Assembly (NCBI RefSeq): GCF_015169395.1
Contig: NZ_CP063458.1
Span: 4,340,001 to 4,404,000, forward strand
Direction of reading: 5' to 3'
DNA: 64,000 nt
DNA from: Humisphaera borealis
GTDB lineage: Bacteria > Planctomycetota > Phycisphaerae > Tepidisphaerales > Tepidisphaeraceae
Shown piece by piece: positions 46,682-49,549 of the stretch. Both the position numbers and the translations under genes were made by a program. Below the pieces are notes generated by a model. It was not told where the DNA came from and made no database searches. It saw only the letters and a program-made list of their open reading frames with translations. Each line of letters opens with the position of its first letter. The first letter of the stretch is position 1.

Positions 46682-47767
46682 CTACGAGCGTCGGCCGTTG
46701 ATCAGGTGGATGATCGCGTAGGAGACGGCCGCACCGCCACCCAGCAGTCCGCCGAGCGCGACGAAGTTGTGCTCCTTGGCCGATTCTGGCGATGCCGGGC
46801 CATCGGCAGGGGCGGGGACGGCGGAATGTGGATCGCCGTGCGGATCCTTTTTCGGTGCGGCATGTTCGTCGGCCGCGCCGTGTCCACCTTTGCCGGCAGT
46901 CCCACCGGGTGCGACAACGCCGGCATCCTGTGCGACCGGCTTTTCCGACGGTTCCAGCCAGTCGGCCTCGCCGGTGTGCAGGTTGTAAACGCAGCCGATC
47001 GCCTTGAGCTTGCCGCTCTTGAACTTCTCGCGGAGCAGTTCACTACGCGACGACAGGTCGGCGATCGACTGCCGAACGTTCGCCCGGATCGCCTTTTCCA
47101 CCAGGCGAGGGCCGGTGAGCTGTGGGAACGATTTGCGGGCCTCGTCGGCGGCGGGCGCGATGTTGTCGACGAGTTTTTCGATGTTCGGCGTCACGTGCGC
47201 CTTATCCACCACCGCCGTCACCGCACCGCACTTGGCGTGACCCATGACGACGATCAGGTTGATCCCCAGATGTTCGACTGCGTATTCGAGCGAGCCGACT
47301 TCATCGACATCGGCGACATTTCCCGCGATGCGCACGACGAAAAGGTCCCCGATGCCGGTGTCGAAGATCAGTTCCGGCGGCACGCGGCTGTCGGCACAGG
47401 AGAGAACCCCTGCAAAGGGGTGCTGGCCGTTGGCGAAGGTGTCGCACAGCCGCGACTGGTTCTGATTCGGCCGGGCGGGTGTCCCGGCGACGAACCGGTC
47501 GTTTCCGGCCGTCAGCTTTTTGATCGCCTCGTCGGCGGGCATTCCCGTGGCGGGCGCGTGGGCCGCGGCCGCGGGTAGAGTGGCAGACGGGGCGGCGCCG
47601 TGGGCATCGACGGCCACACTTGCGGTAGGCGCCGGGGCGGGTGCTCCGTGCGCTGCCGGCGACGGCTCTTTCGCATGTCCGCCGTGCGAATCCGCCAGCG
47701 TGACGGCCGCGCCGACGCTCACGAAGGTAACGGCGCCCAGAAGACGAAGAAGTTTTGATCGCTGCAT
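46682..47767 (-). CDS. Exported beta-class carbonic anhydrase with C-terminal membrane anchor
   Basis: A 361-residue protein. A signal peptide (residues 1-25) precedes a Pro/Ala/His-rich linker (26-75), and the beta-carbonic anhydrase domain follows. Zinc ligands are visible as Cys124 in SCADSRVPPE (with the Asp126/Arg128 dyad), His177 and Cys180 in GHAKCGAV. The enzyme interconverts CO2 and bicarbonate. After another Gly/His/Pro-rich linker the chain ends in a hydrophobic helix (about 333-355) with basic NGRRS. Export and a C-terminal anchor are unusual for this normally cytosolic class, so it would act in the periplasm or paryphoplasm. The ATG at 47767 has AGGAG nine bases upstream. The gene is followed by the P450 gene on the same strand. 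Confidence 0.92.
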   Translation of the reverse strand: MQRSKLLRLLGAVTFVSVGAAVTLADSHGGHAKEPSPAAHGAPAPAPTASVAVDAHGAAPSATLPAAAAHAPATGMPADEAIKKLTAGNDRFVAGTPARPNQNQSRLCDTFANGQHPFAGVLSCADSRVPPELIFDTGIGDLFVVRIAGNVADVDEVGSLEYAVEHLGINLIVVMGHAKCGAVTAVVDKAHVTPNIEKLVDNIAPAADEARKSFPQLTGPRLVEKAIRANVRQSIADLSSRSELLREKFKSGKLKAIGCVYNLHTGEADWLEPSEKPVAQDAGVVAPGGTAGKGGHGAADEHAAPKKDPHGDPHSAVPAPADGPASPESAKEHNFVALGGLLGGGAAVSYAIIHLINGRRS

Positions 47768-47884: not shown

Positions 47885-49165
47885 CTACTTTGCCGGCGGG
47901 TCAATCACGACCAGTCCCGTCGGCGGAATGATGGTTCCGCCCACCGGCTTCTCCCCGGCGAAGGTCATCATCTTCCGAACCTGCTTCGCCGCGTCGGCAG
48001 GTGACATCTCCTGGGTGAAGATCAACTCGAGGTAGGCAAAGTCCACCAGCGCGCTGCCGGCCCAGTCGGCCGCCTGCGAGAAGCCGGAGATGGGAAAGGT
48101 TGCTCCCTTTCCCAGACCTTCGTGGATCTTCTTCGGAATGTCGCCGCCGGCGACCAGGCAGGTGCCGAAGTGGAGGAGCTTGATGTTTCCGGCGTCGCGA
48201 ATGCATTCCGTCAGCACATCTGCACCGATCGGCTTGCTGCCGCCAACGGTCAGGCCCTCGGCGGTTCCGTGCGACGAGAAGTAGAGGACGACCGGCTCGG
48301 CAAGGTAAGTGATCTCGCCGCACCAGCGGCGGACGTCGGCCTCGTCGGAGATGCTGCGGTGCCGCACCTGTACCCGGGGTATGCGGGCGAAGTAGGTGCG
48401 GAGCATCAGGCCATAGGAGAATTCGTTGTCGCGAAGCTGCGCCTCCCACGGGGCTTCGAGGACGATCAGCCAGATCACGCCGGGCTTGGGGACGATGCGG
48501 GTTCCCGTCCAGGGGCCGCCACCTTTCTTGCCGTCTTTGACAGTCGTCCAGGTTCCGGAGAACGACCCGCCCGCCGCCGAGAGTGTGAACTGCCCGTCTC
48601 CTTTTTCGCCGTCGGGCTGGTCGTACTTGAAGGTCAGGACGCCTTTCTCGTCGATGTCGCCGGTGATGGTCGACCGCCCGGCAAAGGCGTAGGTGCCGTG
48701 GACCTTTCGCCCGTCCTGGTGAAGCCGCATGGACCCAAAGGAGGTGTTCCAGACGCCGGCAAAGGTGGCGCCCGCGGCCGCGACGGCGGGGTCAACGCGC
48801 TGCCCTTCCCACTGTCCCCACGGCTGCGTGCCCTTCACACGCCACTTGCCGGTGAAGGTCGCGCCATCCGGCGACAGATCGAACACCCCTTCGCCTTCGG
48901 CGACGGCTTCCTTATAGGTGAACGTAAGCGTTCGGCCCTCCACTTTGCCGGTGACGACACCCGTCAATCCGGCCGAGACGTAAGACCCGGTGACATCGGC
49001 GCCGGTCTGCGTCAGCGTCATGTCGCCAAACGTCGTCCGCCACGCACCGGTGAAGGTGGGGGCGGGCTGGGTGGCGGGCTGCTGTGCGCTGGCCTGGCCG
49101 AGCACAGCAAAGACGATCAGCGCCAATGCCGGGACACGAATCCATGAGGCGAGCGAGCGAGACAT
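47885..49165 (-). CDS. Exported protein with two beta-barrel-like repeats and a caspase/CHAT-like domain
   Basis: A 426-residue protein with a signal peptide (about 1-27). Two related ~95-residue units follow, starting FTGAWRTTFGDMTLTQTG (38) and FAGVWNTSFGSMRLHQDG (135); both run to a GTFSGTW-like end and look like small beta-barrels. From about 228 an alpha/beta domain carries the marks of clan CD peptidases: a strand ending VVLYFSSHG (His299) and a second strand KLLHFGTCLVAGG (Cys336). This is the His-Cys dyad layout of caspase and CHAT folds. Substrate and activity are unknown; the pocket could be inactive. The ATG at 49165 has GGAG seven bases upstream. It is followed by the carbonic anhydrase gene on the same strand after 117 bases. 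Confidence 0.7.
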   Translation of the reverse strand: MSRSLASWIRVPALALIVFAVLGQASAQQPATQPAPTFTGAWRTTFGDMTLTQTGADVTGSYVSAGLTGVVTGKVEGRTLTFTYKEAVAEGEGVFDLSPDGATFTGKWRVKGTQPWGQWEGQRVDPAVAAAGATFAGVWNTSFGSMRLHQDGRKVHGTYAFAGRSTITGDIDEKGVLTFKYDQPDGEKGDGQFTLSAAGGSFSGTWTTVKDGKKGGGPWTGTRIVPKPGVIWLIVLEAPWEAQLRDNEFSYGLMLRTYFARIPRVQVRHRSISDEADVRRWCGEITYLAEPVVLYFSSHGTAEGLTVGGSKPIGADVLTECIRDAGNIKLLHFGTCLVAGGDIPKKIHEGLGKGATFPISGFSQAADWAGSALVDFAYLELIFTQEMSPADAAKQVRKMMTFAGEKPVGGTIIPPTGLVVIDPPAK

Positions 49166-49549
49166 GAGAATGCTCCGGTAGCGGTTCGGACGTGTGAATG
49201 GCAGTACTCTGAACCGGTTCGATGTCGCGGGAAATCGGAACGCCATGTCATGATAACGTCGTGGGCTTCAATGAGCGCTGCATGCGTCGATCAAAGGCGA
49301 ATAGACGTCGAGGACTGTCAGGTGCGGCGGGCAACATGAACTCCTCGAGACGGAATTCGCGTACACAAGCTCGTCCCGACTTCGCAATCTTCAAGACAAC
49401 TTGGATTAGCGCCGCCTATCGGCAGGATATCGCGTCATCCTGTGAATCCGTCAATCGGTTGAAAAGCCGCTCACGCGACCGCAACGAAAACGGGTCCGGA
49501 CACCCAGCGGTATCCGGACCCGAAACAGCCATAGTTCGGTTTTCAGAAA
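49166..49549. other. Intergenic region upstream of the caspase-like gene
   Basis: No convincing gene; a possible plus-strand frame here runs into the ahcY gene from the opposite side and has an Arg/Ser-rich text without family resemblance. The region holds the ahcY terminator (49491-49522) and presumably the promoter of the caspase-like gene. Confidence 0.55.
49491..49522 (-). terminator. Rho-independent terminator of ahcY
   Basis: CGGGTCCGGA/TCCGGACCCG forms a perfect 10-bp stem with a 12-nt loop, 28 bases after the ahcY stop. On the minus strand it is followed by TTTTCG, a short T-run. Confidence 0.85.

Follow-up and report, generated by a model that had tools for sequence, protein, structure and literature searches.

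A predicted exported caspase-fold protein with two avidin-like barrels in Humisphaera borealis and its relatives in other bacterial phyla

The locus encodes an exported protein with two barrels and a C-terminal alpha/beta domain

The gene lies on the minus strand of a 64,000-nucleotide stretch of the Humisphaera borealis contig NZ_CP063458.1, referred to here as the window, and occupies exactly the open reading frame that the original prediction, made from the sequence alone, had delimited (Table 1). Conservation at the protein level across an alignment of 42 sequences, which share 32-54% identity with the window protein, shows that this is not a chance open reading frame. The view that the product is exported is borne out by a signal peptide that ends in LGQASA/QQ. 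An N-terminal hydropathy peak is present in most of the 42 family sequences, several of which have lipobox-like ends (..AC), so that most relatives look like proteins with signal peptides and some like lipoproteins.

Table 1. Features of the gene and of the encoded protein (positions within the window)
Feature	Position	Strand	Description and evidence
Gene for exported protein	47885..49165	(-)	426 aa + stop; signal peptide, two avidin-like barrels, predicted caspase-fold domain; open reading frame and translation
Shine-Dalgarno-like GGAG	49173..49176	(-)	7 nt upstream of the ATG at 49165; read from sequence
Sec signal peptide, residues 1-27	49085..49165	(-)	Hydrophobic core, A-S-A cleavage motif
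Barrel 1, residues 38-125	48791..49054	(-)	Eight strands, G40-x-W42 and R123; DSSP of model, conservation, Foldseek match to zebavidin
Barrel 2, residues 133-225	48491..48769	(-)	Eight strands, G137-x-W139 and R223; DSSP, conservation; aligned in 42/42 sequences
C-terminal predicted caspase-fold domain, residues 227-426	47888..48487	(-)	DUF6642-related; hhalign to DUF6642 proteins; Foldseek to SAVED-CHAT, CED-3, caspases, MALT1
His299 codon, candidate catalytic base	48269..48271	(-)	SSHG, end of strand 3; invariant 42/42
Cys336 codon, candidate nucleophile	48158..48160	(-)	HFGTC, after strand 4; invariant 42/42

The next gene downstream on the same strand (46682-47767) encodes a carbonic anhydrase that has a signal peptide and, at its C-terminal end, a hydrophobic segment; the original prediction had noted it as a neighbour and had seen no obvious partner for the exported protein. 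Clustering of 487 neighbouring proteins from 45 loci yields only a few general families, among them sulfatase-like, ABC and response-regulator genes, or reflects synteny among close relatives, and beyond the family itself no recurrent partner or substrate gene is seen across these loci. An operon or partnership with the carbonic anhydrase, which does not recur beside relatives, was rejected, and we regard it as an incidental neighbour because the clustering gave no partner gene.

The C-terminal domain is predicted to adopt a caspase-type fold

The AlphaFold (AF2) model of the full-length protein, built with 42 sequences, has a pLDDT of 91.5, and the C-terminal domain modelled alone reaches a pLDDT of 95.8 and a pTM of 0.92. 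Within the alpha/beta domain, DSSP places His299 directly after the strand spanning residues 292-297 and Cys336 just after the strand spanning residues 328-333. The clan CD arrangement, in which strands 3 and 4 end in a His and a Cys, respectively, is recovered by DSSP in two models and by Foldseek. The best fold match of the domain in the PDB is SAVED-CHAT (8tl0, TM 0.68; for SAVED-CHAT in general TM 0.66-0.68 by query, with E 4e-7 at TM 0.67), and further matches include CED-3 (TM 0.65), caspase-3 (about 0.63) and MALT1 (0.52), all with a probability of 1.00, as well as caspase-7 and caspase-11. Viral structural matches include giant-virus caspase-domain proteins and a few phage proteins. 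The model and these matches agree with the caspase/CHAT-like fold put forward in the original prediction, which had itself proposed this comparison, and no fold at odds with it was obtained. Structure prediction strongly supports a caspase-type fold for this domain, which we consider very likely, and His299 and Cys336 would then occupy the positions of the caspase dyad, a placement made by topology and motif.

The two candidate catalytic residues, located in the motifs SSHG (residues 297-300) and FGTC (residues 333-336), had been singled out beforehand, and both are retained in every one of the 42 sequences, which come from five phyla, such that the conserved His-Cys dyad of clan CD is present throughout. 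Cys336 is the sole invariant residue among the three cysteines of the window protein, and His299 and His332 are its only invariant histidines. The position of His332 is occupied by Tyr or Phe in some DUF6642 relatives, which leaves His299 as the likely base. Together with these three, the residues of the domain that are invariant among the 42 aligned proteins are E237, W240, F259, R268, R270, G361, W368, S371 and A392. This conservation bears on whether the domain could be without catalysis and serve as a caspase-fold scaffold for binding proteins or ligands. Catalysis is putative, and planctomycetes commonly have inactive caspase homologues, with the C-H dyad kept in only 64% of their metacaspases (PMC3501461); nevertheless, a dyad that is invariant in 42 diverse sequences is unlike one in decay, and we judge a dead scaffold very improbable.

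The domain is related to DUF6642 and shares features with CHAT and C14 peptidases

Searched alone, the window protein has no match in Pfam or NCBIfam, which includes the profiles of CHAT (PF12770) and Peptidase_C14 (PF00656) and that of DUF6642 (PF20347) at its curated cut-off (27 bits), and nothing significant is found in the PDB by sequence. Profile-profile comparison by hhalign establishes homology to DUF6642, at E 7.6e-17 with the whole protein and at 3.8e-20 with the domain; His299 and Cys336 align to H85 and C126, which are invariant in DUF6642 proteins, and the E..W, HG, F.SC and GY..DW..S motifs are aligned as well. The DUF6642 proteins compared are stand-alone, about 190-275 aa in length and without barrels. 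The original remark that no described family with this layout was known holds in that no Pfam or NCBIfam family covers the window protein, but has to be amended in that the domain is related to DUF6642. DUF6642 is not named in the literature searched, and the succession of signal peptide, barrels and caspase-fold domain was not found there either, in a search that was incomplete.

Matches of single family members to Pfam are weak, with DUF6642 found below E 1 in nine of 42 (best 0.0018), Peptidase_C11 in two, and CHAT (E 0.15) and Peptidase_C14 (E 0.29) in one each. Membership of CHAT by sequence was rejected, the hhalign probability being 1.8%; a small CHAT profile aligns the HG and the Cys without reaching significance. 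In the genome of the window, neither CHAT nor C14 gave a hit at the thresholds applied. The 212-kb viral contig IMGVR_UViG_3300025319_000005 (L100:5977-6546, plus strand) codes for a DUF6642 protein (Pfam E 1.4e-32) that stands alone, carries HG and GSC motifs and is possibly a phage caspase-fold protein.

With the CHAT peptidases SAVED-CHAT and Csx29, the window protein has in common a His-Cys dyad on a caspase-like core, but it is exported and lacks a SAVED or TPR part as well as a CRISPR or partner gene. The predicted fold, the beta-hairpin after the HG and the topological positions of the dyad are likewise those of caspases, the paracaspase MALT1 and orthocaspases/metacaspases (C14), whereas calycin-like barrels take the place of the death, NACHT or Ig domains of those proteins.

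The barrels are of the avidin/calycin type and are re-used on other proteins

The tandem related barrels of the original prediction reappear in the AlphaFold model, in Foldseek and in the sequence as eight-stranded barrels of the avidin/calycin type, which span residues 40-123 and 137-223 in the model and are 40% identical to each other. Calycins are marked by a G-x-W in their first strand and an Arg in their last, and DSSP, conservation and Foldseek concur in finding this signature in both barrels. The full model matches the biotin-binding protein zebavidin through a barrel (E 3.6e-4), and the eight strands, the G-x-W start and the W-x-G-x-R end of each barrel are shared with avidins. The zebavidin segment TGVWRNELGS...GVY aligns with the first strands of the barrel, the sequence similarity being marginal (E 0.2), and the Asn of its W-R-N is a Thr in the barrel. 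The barrels do not qualify as avidins proper, the Avidin profile being absent among the Pfam matches of 15 barrels and the comparison of biotin-binding residues consisting of this Asn-to-Thr position. Because conservation in the barrels is highest at mainly structural positions (G, W, Y, F), no ligand site is evident in them. Matches of the barrel profile to MORN repeats (E 0.013) were put down to a similar G-Y/G-W composition, given that the barrel is closed in the model.

The barrel is a mobile, widely re-used module, with profile matches in 30 of 246 genomes of the phylum, and its presence on several types of hydrolase is what one would expect if it served exported hydrolases as a binding module. 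Six esterase-like alpha/beta-hydrolases of Planctomycetota (L025, L026, L028, L029, L031 and L032) bear one or two such barrels on their N-terminal side, and two planctomycete proteins of ~1,200 aa (L080:252-3902, plus strand; L081:1041-4523, minus strand) combine the barrel with a middle beta-rich part, TPR repeats and CHAT. A protein of Acetoanaerobium noterae (L102:1906-3258, plus strand) has copper-amine-oxidase-like repeats, a HEISH motif and the barrel; as read from its sequence, the motif resembles that of Zn-peptidases. The 2.63-Mb record that holds it is labelled a plasmid and may be a mislabelled chromosome.

The same barrel on alpha/beta-hydrolases, and the lack of an assigned function for DUF6642, would also suit a caspase-like fold with another chemistry, namely a cysteine hydrolase, a transpeptidase/ligase or a thioester enzyme acting on envelope components, with barrels that bind a small molecule or glycan. 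Clan CD does include legumains, some of which ligate. However, the closest solved folds are endopeptidases, and we know of no clan CD member that uses its dyad beyond peptide or thioester chemistry; we therefore consider a non-proteolytic role unlikely.

The family is patchily distributed over several phyla

The search for the same architecture in other genomes, as suggested at the outset, located it in several phyla, with some relatives carrying a single barrel. Among 392 genomes of the phylum, 32 contain matches, about 18 of them (the genome of the window included) with a closely related C-terminal domain and the remainder with the barrel only or with DUF6642-like proteins. A full-length relative is present in one of 100 nearer genomes (G092) and in none of the same genus or family, and the gene is therefore patchy. 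When each species is represented by one genome, a 7-sequence profile finds 44 loci, which belong to Planctomycetota, Verrucomicrobiota, Elusimicrobiota, Legionella and Fermentibacterota; the profile from all 19 first homologues was too diverse for scanning, and a scan of genome contigs with the window protein as single query gave no match. In the domain tree, the Verrucomicrobiota, Elusimicrobiota, Legionella and Fermentibacterota sequences each form one clade, and the window protein groups with a Phycisphaerales sequence (98/83), adjoining Verrucomicrobiota (94/75). The Legionellaceae members (L048, L049, L050 and L070, from L. steigerwaltii, L. steelei, strain km772 and one MAG) have signal peptides, and their single clade suggests a single entry of the family into Legionellaceae. 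Searches of plasmids and viral contigs yielded no instance of the full architecture, and the sole plasmid match is to the barrel alone.

Patchiness, together with SAVED-CHAT as the best structural match and the fusion of the barrel to TPR-CHAT proteins, is what might be anticipated for a sensor-protease working in conflict or programmed death, in which the barrels would sense an envelope ligand and then release the protease. We hold such a role to be improbable, given that the protein is exported and not cytosolic, that no partner is conserved and no mobile or defence neighbourhood recurs, that relatives with the full architecture are absent from the plasmids and viral contigs searched, and that the PADLOC match of a single member out of 42, at E 7e-4 with a cyclase model, is unconvincing.

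Proposed function and implications

Overall, we favour as the probable function that of an exported clan CD-type cysteine peptidase, with His299 as the base, Cys336 as the nucleophile and the avidin-like barrels as a binding, targeting or gating module. The protein would first be exported by the Sec pathway, with some relatives becoming lipid-anchored, and the C-terminal caspase-fold domain would then cut protein or peptide, while the two barrels would recognise a ligand or surface and so target or gate the protease. Peptidase activity of the domain is likely in view of its predicted fold and conserved dyad, and ligand gating by the barrels is speculative. The missing sequence relation to CHAT and C14, the lack of a recurrent partner or substrate gene and the largely structural nature of the conserved barrel residues count against this reading. 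In the CHAT protease Csx29, cleavage requires H615 and C658, which an allosteric signal brings into position (PMC10028731), and a comparable gating by the barrels is possible by analogy.

The relatives constitute a family that has no name as yet, occurs in five or more bacterial phyla and probably consists of secreted cysteine proteases. It is tempting to go further and see in them an undescribed group of bacterial caspases from several phyla, secreted and gated by ligands, whose avidin-like barrels would act as the switch of a caspase-fold protease outside the cytoplasm. On this view, the barrel would have been combined with caspase-fold domains on at least two occasions (DUF6642-like and CHAT). 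This broader proposal is tentative, and we regard it as rather doubtful. The DUF6642 group gains a predicted fold and a candidate catalytic dyad, and an exported branch would be added to the bacterial caspase-like proteins, a branch that would escape surveys based on C14 or CHAT profiles. A recurring barrel module, carried by exported hydrolases from several phyla, is defined as well. Since the proteins are small and exported, their activity and ligand binding should be accessible with purified protein.
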